From: Xanthobacteraceae bacterium
GTDB lineage: Bacteria > Pseudomonadota > Alphaproteobacteria > Rhizobiales > Xanthobacteraceae
Assembly: GCA_030043175.1 (NCBI GenBank)
Contig: JASHYD010000093.1
Location: forward strand, 1-10,175
DNA length: 10,175 bases
Direction: 5' to 3'
The position numbers were made by a program, and so were the translations under genes. Under the pieces are notes generated by a model. That model was not told where the DNA came from, did no database searches, and saw only the letters and a program-made list of their open reading frames with translations. Position 1 is the stretch's first letter. Each line of letters begins with the position of its first letter. This document shows, in pieces, positions 1-9,681 of the stretch.

Positions 1-827
1 AAGTGCACCCCGAGCAAGGGTACGCTCGAAAACATCGATCGGGTGCTCAAGAATCCGACCAGTCTGGGCTTTGTGCAACTTGACGTCTACGCCAACGAGG
101 CGAGCAAGCGGCCAGAGGAATTCAAGAAGCTCACCGTGGTCCGCAGCGACATCGCGTGCGAAGGCCTGTGGATGGTGACGAAAAACCCGGCTCTTAACAA
201 CTATGGGCATGTCCTGGCCTTGTCGCGGCGCATTCCGTTCGTCTTGCCTGCGCAAGCGAGCGGCTCGGCAGCGACCTTTGCCTTCCTGCAGGCGAACGAC
301 CGCGACGGCCTAGGCCGTGTGCCGGAAGCGAATATACGTTACGCGGCCGACGCCACCGCGGTGTTGAACGAGGCGGCTTCCAGCACCGCCGGAGCGGTCG
401 GCTTTCTCGTGCAGTTTGCTGATCCCGAGAACGCCAATATCAAGCTAATCGTGGAGAAAGGGCTTACGGTCATTCCGGTGGCGAGCCGGCAGATATTGCA
501 CCTCACGCTGAATGACCGGAATATCTATCAGCTGCAGACGTTCACTTTGAGGACGGTCGGCCTCTTCGTGAAGGCATTGGAGGCAACCACCGTCTGCACG
601 GCCGTCGCAGTTAAACGCCGGAGCAGTTCGGTGGCGAACGTGACAAGGATGACCAGATGGACTTGATCGAGACGGTTCGCGAGGTGCCGGTCGAGAGACT
701 GCTGCCCCAGGAGAGCCGTGTTGCTCAGCTGATACGCGACACAAAGAAGGCCTCGGAGCGAGTGATCGAGGAAATGTCGGCGCTGGTGGAGCGAACCCGC
801 AAGGCGATCGAGGAGCGCAGCCCGTAA
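1..827 (+). pseudogene. TAXI/PBP2-like binding domain with helical tail, 5'-partial and frameshifted
   Basis: The reading frame is open from base 1, so the start lies outside the window. Frame 1 runs to a TGA at 664-666. The protein is clearly paralogous to residues 267-540 of the 2884-4566 product, sharing ENIDR, QLD, CEGLWMVT, SGSAA, FAFLQA and VQFADPENA. Homology leaves frame 1 near 613-617 and resumes in frame 3, where GERDKDDQMDLIE and LLPQESR match GEDQVNQRDLI and LLPQQSR of the paralog. It then continues to a TAA at 825-827. One missing base in the AAA run at 613-615 restores an uninterrupted reading. The family is inferred to be a periplasmic TAXI-type solute-binding fold. Whether an N-terminal Lon-like domain and membrane helix precede it, as in the paralog, cannot be seen. 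The break may be a real mutation or a sequencing error in the homopolymer; recoding seems unlikely. Confidence 0.7.
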
Positions 828-1022: not shown

Positions 1023-1316
1023 ATGACAGACATGTTTTCTGCGGCCTTAAAGGTGATGCGCGTAAGTTACGATTTGTGGTGGATCGCCCTGGTCATCACC
1101 ACTGGAACCGGGACCTTGGCGTGCAATCACGTTGCGTTGCGACTAATTCTGCGAATGTGGCGGGCTTGGAGGCGATCGAAACGGGGAGTGCCACACGAGA
1201 CAGACCGAAACGCTCAGGTCGGGATTGTCGGCATAACGCCGAAGGCGGTGCAAATGCGCCGCATAATGCGGTTCGGGACAAAACGCCGTAACAGCGATAC
1301 CGGGTGGACAGATTAG
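1023..1316 (+). CDS. Possible small membrane protein, unrecognised
   Basis: This is a 97-codon ORF from ATG 1023; a GTG at 999 would add eight residues. I do not recognise the family. Residues about 13-42 form a hydrophobic stretch (DLWWIALVITTG, then ALRLIL) followed by a strongly basic segment (RMWRAWRRSKR), the pattern of a single membrane helix with a cytoplasmic basic flank. The rest is polar and basic. The stop TAG at 1314-1316 overlaps a GTG at 1316-1318 that lies in frame with the downstream sigma-like gene, which could couple their translation. The surrounding stretch 828-1022 shows nothing recognisable. Codon use is only moderately GC-rich at third positions, so this may also be non-coding spacer. 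Confidence 0.3.
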   Translation: MTDMFSAALKVMRVSYDLWWIALVITTGTGTLACNHVALRLILRMWRAWRRSKRGVPHETDRNAQVGIVGITPKAVQMRRIMRFGTKRRNSDTGWTD

Positions 1317-1372: not shown

Positions 1373-2287
1373 ATGACCGATGATGATGGACGCAATCAAT
1401 GGGGTGCGAGTGATCGAAGACGTTGGTGGCAACTCAGGAAGATGATTACGAGGAGATGCGTGTGTCGTTCCGGTCCGCTGCTCGACCTGATCAGAGGGGT
1501 GATTGAGTTCGATGAGGACCTGCTTAGCCAAATCAAAATCAAGGTTGAGCAGATGAGAGACGAGGCTATGACCCCGCCAAATCTTGCGACGGCGCCTGCC
1601 AGGCAGAAGGCCATTTGGGACGCGGCTGGGGATTTCTTTTTTGATCAATCACGGCTTGTCGAAGGCATAATAAAAGATGAAGGCGTGCGAGGGCTAAAGC
1701 CGAACGTGGCCCAAGAGCAGGCGCTTACAGTAATGTTGTACTCTCTGCTTGACGCCCGCCGGCGAGAGCTCTCGGGAAGGACGGAGTACGAAGAACGCAT
1801 TTGGCGAAAGCTCTGGCCAATCAGCAAGAGTCTGATGGAAGAATTCCAGGAGGGACACGGACGTCCGCGTCCTCCCGGATATCGGTGCTCCCGGGAACAC
1901 GCCACGGAAATCCGGCTGCGCATCCTGCGTGGCATACCAAATGATCCATCGGTTCGCAGCATAAAGATTGACACAATCAAAGGCTATTTCGACCAGTTTT
2001 GTGACGAGTGCGTCAAATTAGCTTCCCAGGAGTATGCGGGCGTGCACTATGGGGAGGGTGACCACGGCGCGGGCCTGCCGACCTATGTAAAGGCAGTGAT
2101 GTTGCTTAGCCTGAAGAAATGTATCGGTCAGCTCGGCGAGCCTGAGCGCAACGTTATCCTAGCGTCATTAGAGGAAGACGAAGGGGCCGAATACCGCTGG
2201 CGAGAAGGGATGAAAACGGATGAATTTCGGCGGCTGAAAAATCTGGCGCTACGCCACCTTCGCAACTGCCTGGATCCGAAGGAGTAG
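1373..2287 (+). CDS. Sigma-70-region-4-like regulatory protein (putative)
   Basis: From ATG 1373 the product has 304 residues, is soluble and is rich in charged residues. The last 60 residues resemble sigma-70 region 4: KKCIGQLGEPERNVI (about 247-262) looks like the first helices, and EFRRLKNLALRHLRNCL (about 284-300) looks like a recognition helix followed by a basic amphipathic helix ending in the typical LR.CL. The first 200 residues are helical and unlike a standard ECF region 2, so this would be a divergent or sigma-like factor; I cannot name a family. The frame stays open upstream to GTG 1304, and GTG 1316 is also possible, with GGGTGG eight bases ahead; no start has an ideal ribosome binding site. 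The gene is followed after two bases by its presumed partner, so the two are co-transcribed. It could instead be a non-sigma helical regulator. Confidence 0.5.
   Translation: MTDDDGRNQWGASDRRRWWQLRKMITRRCVCRSGPLLDLIRGVIEFDEDLLSQIKIKVEQMRDEAMTPPNLATAPARQKAIWDAAGDFFFDQSRLVEGIIKDEGVRGLKPNVAQEQALTVMLYSLLDARRRELSGRTEYEERIWRKLWPISKSLMEEFQEGHGRPRPPGYRCSREHATEIRLRILRGIPNDPSVRSIKIDTIKGYFDQFCDECVKLASQEYAGVHYGEGDHGAGLPTYVKAVMLLSLKKCIGQLGEPERNVILASLEEDEGAEYRWREGMKTDEFRRLKNLALRHLRNCLDPKE
2279..2284 (+). promoter_or_regulatory. Ribosome binding site AAGGAG for the 2290 gene
   Basis: AAGGAG lies inside the last codons of the sigma-like gene, five bases before ATG 2290. This fixes that start and indicates coupled translation of the two genes. 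Confidence 0.7.
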
Positions 2288-2289
2288 AG

Positions 2290-2856
2290 ATGATGGTCAA
2301 GTCCGGAATGGAGAAACTGCTTGGCGAGGTGCTCGCGCTTCACGACGAAGACGGGCGCGGCGCCGAGCTGACAGAGGAACGGGCCAGGGATGTTCTGTTG
2401 GGTCATGACGTGTTCAGGCGTGATGAAGAACGTCTTCTGGCAACATCACCGTTGGCGCGATCGACCTATGCCGAGGTCCAGGAGGATTTGCGACTCGAGG
2501 AGGAGGCATTCCTCACCCGCTGCAGGCGGGCTGGGATCGAGACCGAGATTGTCTTTCCCTTGGCGGCGAGCGGCGGCGAGGACCCTCCGGAGTTATCGAA
2601 CGCCGACTTCTCGATCAGACTGCGTAGTCGTCCGATATCCGAGGGATGGGTCATTTCCTTGACGCTGAGCGATCGATTTCGCAAAATCATGCATTCCGAC
2701 GGTTGGCTTGTCGTGGTTGACGATCAGGGCGTCACGTGGCTTCGTGGCCAAGTCAATAGTTATGGAGAAATTCACTCCTACAGCTTGCCGGAGGGCGAAG
2801 ATCCGGCAAAGACTGTTCGAAGGAAAGGATTCAAGCTGCGCGTTCGACCCGGCTGA
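2290..2856 (+). CDS. Soluble partner of the sigma-like protein, possibly anti-sigma-like
   Basis: The 188-residue protein has no signal peptide or membrane helix. Residues about 5-80 are helical and acidic, with the segment LLGHDVFRRDEERLLATSPLAR. The C-terminal half (about 103-186) looks like a beta sandwich: FSIRLRS, WVISLTLSDRF, WLVVVDDQGVTWLRGQV, YGEIHSYSLPEG, FKLRVRPG. The pattern of Asp, Gly, WLRG and later Gly recalls the transthyretin/carboxypeptidase-regulatory type of repeat, but this is weak. It has one cysteine, so it is not a zinc-binding anti-sigma protein. It starts two bases after the sigma-like stop and is followed 27 bases later by the membrane protease. Its position between a sigma-like factor and a protease suggests a sequestering protein destroyed on signal. 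That role is inferred from gene order only. Confidence 0.6.
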   Translation: MMVKSGMEKLLGEVLALHDEDGRGAELTEERARDVLLGHDVFRRDEERLLATSPLARSTYAEVQEDLRLEEEAFLTRCRRAGIETEIVFPLAASGGEDPPELSNADFSIRLRSRPISEGWVISLTLSDRFRKIMHSDGWLVVVDDQGVTWLRGQVNSYGEIHSYSLPEGEDPAKTVRRKGFKLRVRPG

Positions 2857-2871
2857 GAGGAGGCGGTCCTC

Positions 2872-2876
2872 GGAGG
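2872..2876 (+). promoter_or_regulatory. Ribosome binding site GGAGG for the 2884 gene
   Basis: GGAGG sits seven bases before ATG 2884 in the 27-base gap after the previous stop. It supports this start for the membrane protease, and the short gap argues for one transcript with the two genes before it. Confidence 0.75.
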
Positions 2877-2883
2877 ATAGGCG

Positions 2884-4566
2884 ATGTTGCGGCGTGGGGG
2901 ATCGAGAGAAGTTCGTAACGTTGGCTTTCCAGTTGTGAACAGCGATGGCCGCGATCGGCTCGTGCACGTGTATTGCAAGGCGAGCCTCGATCACCATGGC
3001 AACCCCACGATCCCCACCGGGCCCGACGATGTGATCCGGCGTTATCGCGGCGCCGCGTTGGAACACAATCCCCTGTACACGTTTTTCGATACTGATCCAC
3101 GCATCGGGGTGGAGATCTACGTCGACGGAAATAGCCTTGATTTGGCGTTCGTTATCGCCGACCGCATGGCTCGACACGGATACTCGGAGAGCCGAACGAT
3201 CGTCGCCACGGGGTGCTTGCGGGGTAACGATGGCATTGTCGGGCGGGTCGACGGATTCGAGAGAAAGGCGATCCTGCTTCACAAAAGCGATCTACGCAGC
3301 TTTTTGTTTATCTTTCCGAAGGCGAATTTCGTCGAATCTACCGGCGACGCGTTGCAACATCTCCAGGAGGAGTGCCATGCAGAATGCGTGCCAATCGAAA
3401 ACCTCGACGAAATCAAATTTCTTTGGGAGACAGGAATTGACCTCCCCCGTCCAGCGAAGTGGAGGCGAAGCCTAACAGCACTCGGGCTGGTGGCGGCGGT
3501 GAGCTTCACTGCAGTAACGTTGTTGCCTATCGAGAAGCCTCTACCCGCGCCACCACGGCCACCCCTTAATGCGCCCCTCGATAAGCGGATCAACACTGCT
3601 GACGACAATGGCGCCTACCAGACTCAGTTTTGTCCGCGACTGCTCGCTGCGGTCTCGGACGTTCTCTTCCGCGGCTACTGGTGCGCCACGAGCACGGGCA
3701 CAGTCGAAAACATCGATCGCGCGCTCGGATTTCCGACGAACATCGGCTTAGCGCAGCTTGACATCCTTGCCGATGAGGCAATCAAGCGGACTGAAGAACT
3801 CAAGAGGATCGTTGTCATCCGCACAGATGCGTGCGAGGGCCTCTGGATGGTCACCAGGAACTCGGGTCTCAAAAGCTATGAGCACGTTCGGGAGAATGCG
3901 TCTCGAATTCGTTTCATCCTGCCGAAAGGCAGTGGTTCGGCAGCTAGCTTCGCCTTCCTGCAGGCGGATGACCGCGACCGCCTGGGCCGCGTGCCCGACG
4001 CTAAAAAGCATTATGTGGACGGCACCACTGCAGTGCTGAATGAGGTGGCTCGCAGTAACGATGAAGCGGTGGGCTTTTTCGTACAGTTTGCAGACCCGGA
4101 GAACGCAATTTTCAAATTGATAACGCAGACCGACCTCACGATCATTCCGGTGATAAGCAACGAAATATTGGACATCCTGCAGTGGGACGGTCAGCCCGTT
4201 TATCAGCAGAGGACGTTCAAAACGAAATCGGGCGGCGTCTTCGGCGCCCTCGATATCCTCGCGAGACAGGTCACCACCGCCTGTACACCGCTTGCGATAA
4301 TCACCGGAAAGCCGGATGCGTCCGGCATTGGCGAAGATCAAGTCAATCAGCGCGACCTCATCAAAAAGATTAGCGAGGTGTCTAAGAATTTGCTCCCACA
4401 ACAGAGCCGTGCCGTGGCAATTATCATGTCTCTCCAGAAGCGCGTAACGCAGGTTTTCGAGGAGGCGGAGGCGCTGATCGAACGTGTACGGCGCAGGATC
4501 GACAAATCGCAGGAAATTAGGCGAAATAGCGGCACCACCGGCTACGGCACGTCCGGCCGGAGTTAA
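2884..4566 (+). CDS. Membrane sensor-protease: Lon-like (S16) domain, one TM helix, TAXI/PBP2-like binding domain
   Basis: The product has 560 residues in three parts. Residues about 10-182 resemble the Lon proteolytic domain: IGVEIYVDGNSLDLAF carries Ser84 at the place of Lon GPSAG, ATGCLRG matches the Lon TGE.TLRG strand, and GRVDGFERKAILL places Lys128 where Lon has its catalytic Lys in GGLKEK. The Ser-Lys spacing is 44, against 43 in E. coli Lon (Ser679/Lys722). There is no AAA+ ATPase module. RPAKWRRS then precedes a membrane helix (about 197-215), which by the positive-inside rule puts the protease in the cytoplasm. After a Pro-rich linker, residues about 245-475 resemble a TAXI-type periplasmic binding domain (STGTVENIDRA, GLAQLDILADEA, LWMVTRNSGLKSYEHV, ILPKGSGSAASF, VQFADPENA). 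Residues about 485-545 form a charged, probably coiled-coil tail. Inferred role: an external ligand controls intracellular cleavage, perhaps of the neighbouring gene product. The substrate and ligand are unknown. Confidence 0.75.
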   Translation: MLRRGGSREVRNVGFPVVNSDGRDRLVHVYCKASLDHHGNPTIPTGPDDVIRRYRGAALEHNPLYTFFDTDPRIGVEIYVDGNSLDLAFVIADRMARHGYSESRTIVATGCLRGNDGIVGRVDGFERKAILLHKSDLRSFLFIFPKANFVESTGDALQHLQEECHAECVPIENLDEIKFLWETGIDLPRPAKWRRSLTALGLVAAVSFTAVTLLPIEKPLPAPPRPPLNAPLDKRINTADDNGAYQTQFCPRLLAAVSDVLFRGYWCATSTGTVENIDRALGFPTNIGLAQLDILADEAIKRTEELKRIVVIRTDACEGLWMVTRNSGLKSYEHVRENASRIRFILPKGSGSAASFAFLQADDRDRLGRVPDAKKHYVDGTTAVLNEVARSNDEAVGFFVQFADPENAIFKLITQTDLTIIPVISNEILDILQWDGQPVYQQRTFKTKSGGVFGALDILARQVTTACTPLAIITGKPDASGIGEDQVNQRDLIKKISEVSKNLLPQQSRAVAIIMSLQKRVTQVFEEAEALIERVRRRIDKSQEIRRNSGTTGYGTSGRS

Positions 4567-5619: not shown

Positions 5620-5635
5620 GTGGAGCGAATAAGTG

Positions 5636-6013
5636 ATGGACGACACCTTTCAGGACCTCGGCGAACTGGAGCAGGCGGTTATGCAGCTCATCTGGGCGGG
5701 TCGCCCGATGACGGCCGAACTCGTGCGCGAACAGTTGCCGCGGCGGTTGAAGGAATCAACGGTGCGAACGGTGCTGCGGCGGTTGGAAGAAAAGGGCTAC
5801 GTCAGCCATACGGTCGACGGGCGCACCTATGTGTTTGAGGCTACCCAAGCGCGGGGACGCGTCGCCGCCAATGCGGTCCGCCGTATTGTCGACCGGTTCT
5901 GCAACGGATCTGTGGAGGAGGTGCTGGTTGGCATGATCGATGCCAAGATGTTCGATCGGCGCCAGCTTGCTATGCTGAGGGACAAGATCGAGAAGGCCAA
6001 GAAGAAGCGGTGA
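5636..6013 (+). CDS. BlaI/MecI/CopY-family transcriptional repressor
   Basis: The product has 125 residues from ATG 5636; a GTG directly before it at 5633 is also possible, and GGAG at 5622-5625 serves either. The winged-helix domain covers about residues 4-75: LGELEQAVMQLIWAGRPMTAELV, then RRLKESTVRTVLRRLEEKGYVSHTVDGRTYVFEA, which is the typical recognition helix and wing of the family. The C-terminal third (about 85-125), with DRFCNGSVEEVLVGMIDAKM and a lysine-rich end, is the dimerisation part. Members bind DNA as dimers and are inactivated by cleavage by a BlaR1-type M56 membrane protease encoded next door. Here that partner follows 18 bases downstream but is broken, so the repressor may no longer respond to its original signal. 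Family assignment is secure; the target genes are unknown. Confidence 0.93.
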   Translation: MDDTFQDLGELEQAVMQLIWAGRPMTAELVREQLPRRLKESTVRTVLRRLEEKGYVSHTVDGRTYVFEATQARGRVAANAVRRIVDRFCNGSVEEVLVGMIDAKMFDRRQLAMLRDKIEKAKKKR

Positions 6014-6031
6014 CGCCGGCCGGAAGGCATG

Positions 6032-6490
6032 ATGTTAGTGCCGCTCCTGGAGGCGGCGCTCCGATCCTTTGCCCTGGGCGGCGCCGTGTGGTTGAGCCTT
6101 AGGTTCTTGCGCGCAACCCGCAGACCCCGAATGACAGCCCGGACCGTGCTGCTGATGGCACCTCTGTCGATGCCAGTGCTGACACTCGGCGACGGTGCCA
6201 ATCCCGGCATATTTGTCCCCACCGGACGTCGCGATCGCATCTCCACCCACCATCGCGCGCCCACGGCTTTAGCGGTAGAATTTCCATTGGAAAAGATCGA
6301 CCTACGGTCGGCAGCGCAGGCGTAGCGGGGCACTCCCAAGAATCTGCATTCGCGGATGCGCTAATTCGCGGTGCGATCGACTGGCTGGGGCTCGCAACCG
6401 GCTTCTATCTTGCCGTGTGCGTCGGCTTGTTGAGTTGGCGATCACAGGTCAATATGGGAGAGGCCTGCGTCTGCGCCGGCAGGGTCGATG
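6032..6490 (+). pseudogene. M56 (BlaR1-like) peptidase, decayed N-terminal remnant
   Basis: The first 97 codons start at ATG 6032 (ATG 6029 is too close to the GGAAGG at 6022-6027) and end at a TAG at 6323-6325. They give the typical M56 beginning: LLEAALRSFALGGAVWLSLRFLR as the first membrane helix and TARTVLLMAPLSMPVL as the second. Similarity to the next M56 helix then reappears in another frame: bases about 6364-6432 read DWLGLATGFYLAVCVGLL in frame 1. A continuation like LAITGQYGRGLRLRRQ follows in frame 3 to about 6490. I found no HExxH zinc motif in any plus frame to 6740, so the protease domain is lost. The gene is the usual partner of the BlaI-type repressor just upstream. Confidence 0.7.
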
Positions 6491-7006: not shown

Positions 7007-7873
7007 TTAGCCCAGCGCGCCGGCCGGCTTGGCGTCAAGCTTCGTGTAAGCGTGGCGATTTTCAAGCAGCAGCAGCGTGACCGCAAAGTCATACTGCTCC
7101 GCGAAGATCGTCATCTCGCAGACCGGCTCGGCGAACCAGATGCCTGCCGGCAGTTCGACACCCGAGCGTCCGTCGACGATCATGTCCTGGCGGCCTGCCA
7201 AGGAGTCCGCGGGGATTGCAATTGGCGGCCCGCAGGCTCGAAAGAATGCGCCGGTCCTCACGGCCGGCTTGCTGGCCCGCGACCATAAAATGAATCCGTC
7301 GCGTGAAACGACCAGCACAGCTCGCCGCGCGGTGAATTGCAGCCAGCGCAGCGCCGCCGCGATGAGCGACACGCGGTAGCGGTCGGCGCAGTGCGAAATC
7401 ATATCGAGATCGACCTTGTCGCCTTCGGGAATCTGCCGCCGGAAATCGTCAAGTGGCATCAGCAGTCCGGCCGAGAACACGTTGGCCTCATGCTCGATCT
7501 GAGCGTACGCGCTGTCCCAGCAAACGACATCCTGCGCGCCGCACTGGATTCCCGCTGGGTAGGCCAGCCGGTGAATGAGGTAGTGGCCGAACTCGTGCCC
7601 GAGGGTGAAGTTGATGCGTCCTTCAGAGGCGATCGCGCTGTTATAGAAAATCCCCCAGCCCTTCTTCCCGGTGGGCGCGCGACAGAGGGTGCCATCAATT
7701 CCCGGCAGCGATCGGCCGAGGACGAGCGACACGGGATCATCCGGATATCGGTGCGCGCTGTACTCTTTCGCTACGAGCGTAACATCGACTGGGAAACGGT
7801 CCTTCCCCAGGACCGCATTGAGCTCCAAGCCGATGTCGATCGCCCACCGTTCGGGTGACGGGTCGCCCGTCAT
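7007..7873 (-). CDS. ImmA/IrrE-family (DUF955) metallopeptidase
   Basis: The product has 288 residues. The zinc-peptidase signature HEFGH is at residues 93-97 (His93, Glu94, His97). The family's downstream motif, EHEANVFSAGLLMP, is at 127-140 and supplies the third metal-ligand glutamate. The segment GWGIFYNSAIASEGRINFTLG just before HEFGH is the usual beta-strand lead. The C-terminal 120 residues form an extra domain that I cannot assign. Family members such as ImmA cleave or inactivate a partner Xre-type repressor, often on phages and integrative elements. The ATG overlaps the stop of the upstream Xre gene by four bases, so the two are translated from one message. The catalytic residues are all present, and activity on the Xre partner is a well-founded inference. 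Confidence 0.92.
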   Translation of the reverse strand: MTGDPSPERWAIDIGLELNAVLGKDRFPVDVTLVAKEYSAHRYPDDPVSLVLGRSLPGIDGTLCRAPTGKKGWGIFYNSAIASEGRINFTLGHEFGHYLIHRLAYPAGIQCGAQDVVCWDSAYAQIEHEANVFSAGLLMPLDDFRRQIPEGDKVDLDMISHCADRYRVSLIAAALRWLQFTARRAVLVVSRDGFILWSRASKPAVRTGAFFRACGPPIAIPADSLAGRQDMIVDGRSGVELPAGIWFAEPVCEMTIFAEQYDFAVTLLLLENRHAYTKLDAKPAGALG

Positions 7874-8193
7874 TTATCCTCACCCCACAGATCGACCATG
7901 CGTCGAATCTTGTCCTTGGTGGCCGGGTCCATTTTCCGGTAACGGCGAAAAAAGGCCTGGTCGGCGGCCTCCGCCACGTCCGTCTTGTCCGTGGGATCAA
8001 TAAGATAGTCCGAGGTGACCCCGAGCACCGAGGCGATTCGTGCAACTTTGTCGGCCGATGGCCTTGGCGGACTCTTGTTCTCTAATTCCCAGATATAGCT
8101 CTTACTTGACTCGGTCAGTTCCGCGAGCTTTTCAAGGGTGTAACCCTTCTTCTTCCTGAGTTCGCGGATCTTGTCGCCGAGGGCGGTGGACAC
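7870..8193 (-). CDS. Xre-family helix-turn-helix regulator
   Basis: The product has 107 residues and starts at GTG 8193-8191. AGGAGG (plus-strand CCTCCT, 8199-8204) lies five bases ahead of the start. The HTH_3 domain is residues about 8-62: KIRELRKKKGYTLEKLAELT, then SSKSYIWELENKS as recognition helix, and KVARIASVLGVTSDYLI. The C-terminus (AFFRRYRKMDPATKDKIRRMV) is a short helical tail common in such regulators. It is the first gene of the minus-strand pair with the ImmA/IrrE peptidase. It probably represses the divergent promoters between it and the genes to the right, and is a candidate substrate or partner of the peptidase. Confidence 0.93.
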   Translation of the reverse strand: MSTALGDKIRELRKKKGYTLEKLAELTESSKSYIWELENKSPPRPSADKVARIASVLGVTSDYLIDPTDKTDVAEAADQAFFRRYRKMDPATKDKIRRMVDLWGEDK

Positions 8194-8384: not shown

Positions 8385-8612
8385 ATGAATGGACTTGGCC
8401 TGGTCAGCCGCTGGGCTGTCGGGGCAGCGCTCAACCCAAGGAACGACCGTGATCACTACGTTGACCCTTCACCGCTCGGCAGCTGCACCCGCTTCGACCT
8501 CGCTGACGGCAAGCAGATACTCATCCATTACGCCGAAGTGCGCAGCCCCGGGTCATCCCGCTGCAGAACGGTCCATCCCTTCCGCTCGTGGGCTGACACG
8601 GCGGTTGCGTGA
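8385..8612 (+). CDS. Small hypothetical protein upstream of the Toprim gene
   Basis: A 75-codon ORF from ATG 8385 ends in TGA at 8610-8612, ten bases before the Toprim start. Its second half is strongly GC-biased at third positions and reads naturally: DPSPLGSCTRFDLADGKQILIHYAEV and VHPFRSWAD. I do not recognise a named family. The competing frame, which extends the Toprim ORF back to ATG 8389, gives a Ser/Ala/Pro-rich low-complexity sequence and is the less likely coding frame here. No good ribosome binding site precedes ATG 8385, so the true start may be further in. Confidence 0.45.
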   Translation: MNGLGLVSRWAVGAALNPRNDRDHYVDPSPLGSCTRFDLADGKQILIHYAEVRSPGSSRCRTVHPFRSWADTAVA

Positions 8613-8622
8613 GGTGGATGCC

Positions 8623-9681
8623 ATGTCCTCCCGAGCGGCCGAACTGGCGCGCCGGCTCGCGCGTGATGCCGAGGCGGTGTGCCGCCATTACCTCACCAAT
8701 GGCCGCCGCCACGGCCGCTACTGGCTGGTTGGCGATGTCGCCAACACACCAGGCCGCAGCCTGTTCGTTCGCCTGACCGGTCCCGACAGCGGCAAGGGTG
8801 CCGCTGGCAAGTGGACCGACGCCGCCACCGGCCAGTATGGTGATTTGCTCGATCTCATTGCTCTGACGACGGGTCTGGAGCGCTTGCGCGATGTCCTCGA
8901 TGAGGCGCGCGCATTCCTCAGATTACCACGGTGTCAACCATCGTCTGATCGGCCCGCCAGGCCCGCGCCGACCGGATCGCCCGAATCTGCACGCCGTCTG
9001 TTGGCGCTGGCCCGGCCGATCGGGAGCACCATCGCAGAGACGTACTTGCGCAAACGCGGCATCACGGCTTTGCCCGAAGCGGGCGCACTGCGCTTCCACC
9101 CCCGCTGTTACTACCGGCCTGAGGCCGACGCGCCGACCGAGATCTGGCCGGCGCTGATCGCGGCGGTCACGGACCTCGCCGGCAAGATCACCGGCGCGCA
9201 TCGCACCTGGCTCGACCCGTCCGGTAACGGCAAGGCTCCTGTCGGCACGCCACGGCGTGCGATGGGTCATCTGCTTGGGCACGGCGTCCGCTTTGGTGTG
9301 ACGAGCGATGTCATGACGGCCGGCGAAGGTCTCGAGACCATGCTGTCACTGCGTTGCGCTCTGCCGCACCTGCCCATGCTCGCCGCCCTGTCGGCCAATC
9401 ATCTTACCGCTATCCTGTTCCCGACAGCGCTCCGCCGTCTCTATGTCGCGCGCGACCGCGATCCGGCGGGTGACCTGGCGGTCGCGACCTTGACCAGGCG
9501 GGCGCAGTCGGTCGGGATCGAGGCGCTTACGCTGTCGCCGGTCCTGGGCGATTTCAACGAAGACTTGGGCTGCCTCGGCGTTCGCGAGCTTCGCGCCGCC
9601 TTGATTGCCCAGCTTGCCCCAGAAGACGTGCCGCGATTCCTGAGCGGCGATGGACGCCGCGGGCCGGTACATGCAATGTGA
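8623..9681 (+). CDS. Toprim-domain primase-like protein of mobile elements
   Basis: From ATG 8623, with GAGG at 8611-8614, the product has 352 residues. The N-terminal part (about 1-105) reads like the domain preceding Toprim in plasmid and integrative-element primase-like proteins: AEAVCRHYLTNGRRHGRYWLVGD, KWTDAATGQYGDLLDLIALTTG. A middle part (about 125-225) contains ETYLRKRGITALPEAGALRFHP, a common lead-in of this family. The Toprim domain is residues about 225-320, with the catalytic-type glutamate Glu235 in MTAGEGLETMLSL and the acidic pair Asp278/Asp280 in LYVARDRDPAGDLA. Such proteins act in DNA replication or priming of plasmids and ICEs. No helicase domain is present. The open frame reaches back to 8389, but that extension is low-complexity and overlaps a better ORF, so the 8623 start is preferred. 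Confidence 0.88.
   Translation: MSSRAAELARRLARDAEAVCRHYLTNGRRHGRYWLVGDVANTPGRSLFVRLTGPDSGKGAAGKWTDAATGQYGDLLDLIALTTGLERLRDVLDEARAFLRLPRCQPSSDRPARPAPTGSPESARRLLALARPIGSTIAETYLRKRGITALPEAGALRFHPRCYYRPEADAPTEIWPALIAAVTDLAGKITGAHRTWLDPSGNGKAPVGTPRRAMGHLLGHGVRFGVTSDVMTAGEGLETMLSLRCALPHLPMLAALSANHLTAILFPTALRRLYVARDRDPAGDLAVATLTRRAQSVGIEALTLSPVLGDFNEDLGCLGVRELRAALIAQLAPEDVPRFLSGDGRRGPVHAM

Follow-up and report, generated by a model that had tools for sequence, protein, structure and literature searches.

The window analysed here, a stretch of 10,175 nucleotides from a Xanthobacteraceae bacterium (assembly GCA_030043175.1, contig JASHYD010000093.1), carries three closely spaced open reading frames (ORFs) on the plus strand: gene 1 (1373-2287, 304 aa), gene 2 (2290-2856, 188 aa), and gene 3 (2884-4566, 560 aa). 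We read the locus as a membrane-spanning version of a protease/anti-sigma/sigma relay. This is our best reading, and we rate it slightly below an even chance. Gene 1 would belong to the sigma family and be held in check by a soluble inhibitor, gene 2, with gene 3 acting as the sensor-protease. The periplasmic domain of gene 3 would bind a small ligand (possibly similar to glutamate, to judge from other TAXI proteins), and the resulting conformational change would be passed on by a single helix and activate the cytoplasmic S16/Lon-like domain. The activated domain would cut gene 2, and gene 1, once freed, would direct transcription. Directly established are the genes, the sigma-4 fold of gene 1, the TAXI fold of gene 3, its transmembrane helix (by hydropathy), an invariant Ser-Lys pair, and a domain shared by gene 2 and a fusion of the binding protein. 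We infer that the signal is gated by a ligand and travels in this direction.

The view that gene 2 and the gene 3 binding domain share one signalling path finds its best support in domain fusions. Residues 1-74 of gene 2 (2290..2511) match the N-terminus of P0068 with 74% identity (E 4e-30), and in P0068 this segment is fused to a transmembrane helix and a binding domain. The results for the gene 3 family were drawn from the best 120 of its 250 relatives, and among these, six proteins (P0068 and five others) combine a gene 2-type N-terminal domain, a membrane helix, and a binding domain. The charge pattern of these fusions places the gene 2-type domain inside the cell. In a second set (P0067, P0071, P0078, and weakly P0065), the gene 2-type domain is replaced by a segment resembling a small membrane protein encoded upstream of gene 1. 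All ten fusions, six of the first and four of the second type, form one clade in a tree of the binding domains, with a support of 1.0.

The sequence-only reading of this DNA had described gene 3 as a Lon-like protease joined to a TAXI/PBP2-like binding domain in one membrane-spanning chain. Both the binding domain and the single-chain arrangement were borne out. Residues 228-508 (3565..4407), with four invariant Cys residues, have the fold of the TAXI-family solute-binding proteins of TRAP transporters (e.g. 8s4j, 8u79), and a close sequence relative is encoded upstream. The domain differs from these proteins in being joined to a cytoplasmic domain, and the window revealed no TRAP membrane subunit. 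The model TIGR02122 matched five of 37 family members (best E 5e-4) and left gene 3 itself unmatched at E<=1; its cut-off is 84.35, and the score of P0061 was 11.4. The binding domain is preceded by one transmembrane helix (residues 196-214, 3469..3525; hydropathy 1.97). The charge is more positive on the N-terminal side of this helix in 22 of 26 relatives, so the Lon part is predicted to lie inside. At the C-terminus, the AF2 model shows a long helix (residues 509-549, 4408..4530; mean pLDDT of 46-71 by block).

The N-terminal domain of gene 3 (residues 1-184, 2884..3435) is probably an S16/Lon-like domain. Ser84 (codon 3133-3135) and Lys128 (codon 3265-3267) align with the catalytic Ser-Lys pair of Lon, about 43 residues apart, and none of the shuffles reproduced this match. 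Both residues are present in all 26 of the fusions that share 41-89% identity with gene 3, not counting gene 3 itself. A comparison of the domain with Lon (26 rows) gave seven shared invariant positions by default and eight with the full-length setting used for the shuffles, and the topology predicted by the AF2 model follows the order known for Lon. The S16 domain of SepM was matched weakly, below the cut-off, in three of 37 members. No family match to an AAA+ ATPase module of the LonA/LonB type was found in the 560-aa chain, and a sequence search of solved structures with the Lon-like domain returned nothing at E<=10. Proteases of the SepM/YlbL type likewise have an S16 domain without an AAA+ module. 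Their S16 domain lies outside the membrane and is accompanied by a PDZ domain, whereas the domain of gene 3 is predicted to be inside. The Lon-like domain would be active, with gene 2 as its substrate.

As for the proposed sigma-like nature of gene 1, structure and profile both point to sigma region 4, and the refuting outcome named in the sequence-only reading, a predicted structure without a sigma-4 or helix-turn-helix fold, did not occur. The helix-turn-helix fold of this -35-binding region occupies residues 237-300 (2081-2272) and was detected by Foldseek and VIA-align on the AF2 model as well as by a profile test for extracytoplasmic function (ECF) sigma factors. The NCBIfam model TIGR02989 matched three of 12 members of the gene 1 family, below its cut-off. 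By sequence, only two weak matches to solved structures were obtained, both unrelated. Gene 1 would act as a working sigma factor.

Its partner is probably an anti-sigma protein. This assignment of the N-terminal domain of gene 2 draws on the sigma-like neighbour and on a resemblance, seen by eye, to the zf-HC2 protein L032, without the zinc residues: the zinc-binding motif HxxxCxxC of the zinc-containing anti-sigma (ZAS) class occurs in none of the 25 gene 2 sequences, that of the window included. An annotated zf-HC2 gene was present in one of the seven sigma neighbourhoods examined, which is too few for a profile. The family libraries gave no match to gene 2, and a sequence search of solved structures with the gene 2 family found no chain at E<=10. 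The C-terminal domain (residues 100-188, 2587..2856), which is conserved in the gene 2 alignment and which we take to be beta-rich, is a possible place of cleavage. Gene 2 would bind gene 1 and inhibit it.

To assess whether the three genes travel together, we read linkage from exactly equal longest-contig sizes of their relatives and compared the counts with those for jittered sizes; each row represents a cluster at 90%. Gene 1 and gene 3-family relatives had equal contig sizes in six of 12 cases (0.12 by jitter), the pairings comprising four Lon fusions, one fusion fragment, and one stand-alone binding protein. For gene 2 and the gene 3 family, this was true of four of 25 (0.23 by jitter), namely two Lon fusions and two stand-alone binding proteins, and for genes 1 and 2 of two (0.02 by jitter). 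In addition, gene 1 is continued directly by the Lon-like domain in the relative P0132; this represents either a deletion or an assembly join and fits the gene order of the window. The evidence that the genes co-occur pairwise in other contigs, presumably in a similar order, is good but indirect. Profile scans of genome contigs with the alignments of the Lon-like domain and of gene 2 found no named genome with the operon. Plasmids searched with gene 3 were negative, as were viral contigs searched with the alignments of genes 1 and 2.

Three alternatives each have findings in their favour. In the first, the main rival of the relay, the S16/Lon-like domain serves for docking without proteolysis: depending on the ligand outside, the membrane protein takes up gene 2 or lets it go, and the inhibitor is sequestered rather than cut. 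The Lon profile score of the domain was no better than that of shuffled sequences; the earlier assignment as a Lon-like protease draws its support from the Ser-Lys pair and the topology. Moreover, the sister architecture ties the gene 2 domain directly to the transmembrane helix and binding domain and lacks any protease-like part. The same input may thus act with or without a protease, and conformational signalling alone can serve. The strict conservation of Ser84 and Lys128 across the fusions and the failure of the shuffles to reproduce the match to the Lon pair speak against docking, which we regard as unlikely.

In the second alternative, gene 1 is a DNA-binding regulator with a sigma region-4 domain, and the circuit controls a transcription factor instead of the choice made by RNA polymerase. 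The profile test for sigma region 2, which binds the core enzyme and the -10 element, was negative, with 121 of 200 shuffles reaching the score of gene 1, and the first 110 residues of gene 1 are poorly modelled by AF2. However, the helices at residues 138-162, 174-187, and 199-225 are mostly well predicted and located where region 2 would be, and several of the VIA sigma matches run on into them, with a large root-mean-square deviation of 11-17. We consider a regulator of this kind improbable.

The third alternative holds that the genes are neighbours without a common circuit, an orphan binding protein having acquired an unrelated domain beside an unrelated pair of regulators. The proposed co-occurrence of the genes was supported indirectly and in pairs, but no contig size was common to all three. 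This lowered our confidence in the relay and raised that in mere neighbourhood, yet the missing three-gene match says little because the rows represent 90% clusters. The binding protein often occurs as a stand-alone copy, and in the tree of binding domains the 27 Lon fusions fall into separate pure groups of 21, 5, and 1 instead of a single clade. The tight spacing, the linkage well above chance, and the fusion of the gene 2 domain to the same binding domain elsewhere make this explanation quite unlikely.

The relay can be compared with systems in which a sigma factor is held by an anti-sigma partner. In regulated intramembrane proteolysis of the RseA/RsiW type, a membrane-spanning anti-sigma factor is cut by site-1 and site-2 proteases, and an envelope signal is passed via the anti-sigma to the sigma factor. 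Here, by contrast, gene 2 looks soluble, and it is the protease-like chain that spans the membrane. The sequence-only reading had named site-1/site-2 proteases, zinc anti-sigma factors, and partner switching as the known release pathways. That list omits the CalpL-CalpT-CalpS system. According to the reports, occupancy of the CalpL sensor activates its Lon domain. The domain then cleaves the anti-sigma factor, a step taken to result in release of the sigma factor (PMC11417357, PMC12751052, PMC11229360). Like the locus described here, with partner identities that are in part provisional, that system comprises a Lon-type protease with a sensor domain, an anti-sigma-type substrate, and a sigma factor, and the protease is N-terminal to the sensor. 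It differs in that CalpL carries a SAVED sensor, whereas the sensor of gene 3 is TAXI-type, periplasmic, and located behind a transmembrane helix. Furthermore, no CRISPR-like repeat array occurs in the 10-kb window, and gene 2 could not be tied to a solved chain. The Csx29-Csx30-CASP-sigma system (Craspase) is a similar relay, in which cleavage by a protease lifts the partner's inhibition of the sigma factor (PMC10028731). Its protease is of the CHAT type and is switched on by target RNA, and a membrane part is not described in the available text. The earlier statement that no known pathway has a periplasmic binding domain and a Lon-type protease directly joined in one chain fared better: no fusion of a periplasmic-binding or TAXI domain with a Lon-like domain was found in the available parts of the open-access literature on anti-sigma/Lon/TAXI combinations and ECF architectures.

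If the relay is correct, Lon-type cutting of an anti-sigma factor would be a general output module into which varied sensors are plugged, not a peculiarity of CRISPR, and one type of sensor for this module would span the membrane. A single chain would then connect a small molecule outside the cell with transcription, by a path that differs both from two-component systems and from site-1/site-2 proteolysis, and the orphan TAXI-type binding proteins would, as a family, gain a function that can be tested. We give little credence to a further reading, in which gene 3 is a ligand-gated transmembrane Lon-type protease and the relay known from CRISPR also has a non-CRISPR form that senses the periplasm. 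The binding domains would have been swapped on more than one occasion, as the three pure groups in the tree would indicate, and secreted phage copies of this kind of binding protein might starve or mislead the sensors.

Such phage copies do exist. A search of viral contigs with the gene 3 alignment revealed ten loci (L001-L010), in all of which the match was confined to the binding domain of a stand-alone protein. Ten ORFs from five of the viral contigs included DNA polymerase, primase, and clamp-loader genes at L004 and a terminase at L008; the rest were of unknown or general function or unmatched. Two of the copies were checked and match phrog_6856, a family of unknown function. Distant relatives of the binding protein (<60% identity) occur in 39 of 50,697 phage records, and the phages encoding TAXI-type binding proteins include Erwinia phages whose genomes measure about 240 kb. 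Eight copies were used in the tree, L003 and L006 being omitted as near-duplicates. They group with 17 stand-alone proteins (support 0.84), apart from the Lon fusions, and thus give no sign of capture from the gene 3 sensor; a derivation from the fused sensor is unsupported. A virus is reported to have taken the CalpL sensor domain as the anti-CRISPR AcrIII-2, a decoy against the second messenger of CalpL. It is speculation by analogy that the phage copies could play a similar decoy role.

The spacing of the operon agreed with its earlier description as tight with good ribosome binding sites, except for gene 1. The gaps measure 2 and 27 bases, and the sites of gene 2 (AAGGAG, 2279-2284) and gene 3 (GGAGG, 2872-2876) are clear, whereas that of gene 1 is weak. 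The open frame of gene 1 extends upstream to a GTG at 1304; five relatives (P0121-P0125) begin at the position equivalent to 1373, in support of that start. Matches to an ECF-like promoter pattern (GGAAC-N14..19-CGTT) numbered two in the window, against 0.67 expected, and neither lies upstream of the operon.

At E<=0.001, we found 12 relatives of gene 1, 26 of gene 2, and 250 of gene 3, including P0001, which is 100% identical to gene 3 in the protein database and whose longest contig has 10,175 bases, as expected if the window is an entire metagenome-type contig. Among the matches listed, named stand-alone binding proteins come from Xanthobacteraceae, Hyphomicrobium, Humitalea, and Steroidobacteraceae; the named relatives of gene 2 come from Methylobacteriaceae. 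None of the three window proteins gave an above-cut-off match in Pfam or NCBIfam or a PADLOC match at E<=1, and in PHROGs only the binding domain of gene 3 was matched (phrog_6856, E 1.3e-11). Weak family-library matches among members of the three families were mixed, with largely unrelated names.

Two plus-strand pieces upstream of gene 1 were absent from the sequence-only reading. The first, at 1..827, encodes a secreted, stand-alone TAXI-type binding protein; the window edge removes its 5' end and leaves the 3' part. It shares DNA repeats (D1, D2) of 72-73% with gene 3. Its first 204 codons are 82-97% identical to the nine best relatives listed, and its tail (660-827), readable in another frame, is 85-98% identical to the eight best. 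The frame is broken near 612, either by a real lesion or by an assembly error. Stand-alone binding proteins and Lon fusions also occur on contigs of equal size elsewhere (31,655 and 32,648 bases), so a copy such as the one upstream may regularly accompany these fusions. The second piece, the small membrane-protein ORF at 1032..1316, aligns over 63 aa with the N-terminus of P0067 at 41% identity (E 3e-6) and also matches those of P0071, P0078, and, weakly, P0065 (E 0.025); it has no NCBIfam match. That binding-protein fusions begin with such a segment is a hint that the ORF, too, is part of this set of genes.

Farther downstream, the minus strand encodes a CapP-like ImmA/IrrE protease (7007-7873, PADLOC E 1.3e-67) and a CapH-like helix-turn-helix repressor (7870-8193, PADLOC E 1.7e-34), a pair known from the control of the cyclic-oligonucleotide-based antiphage signalling system (CBASS). 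No CBASS effector was present among the seven window proteins scanned with PADLOC, and Rfam at the gathering threshold and a tRNA search returned nothing in the window. A plus-strand gene at 8389-9681 encodes a Toprim/DUF7146 primase, one stretch of which resembles a portion of the TraI model; this suggests a mobile element downstream of the operon. Between the operon and these genes, a BlaI/CopY-type repressor (5633-6325, plus strand) is followed by a short ORF at a place where its membrane-sensor partner might lie; the partner looks degenerate by eye.
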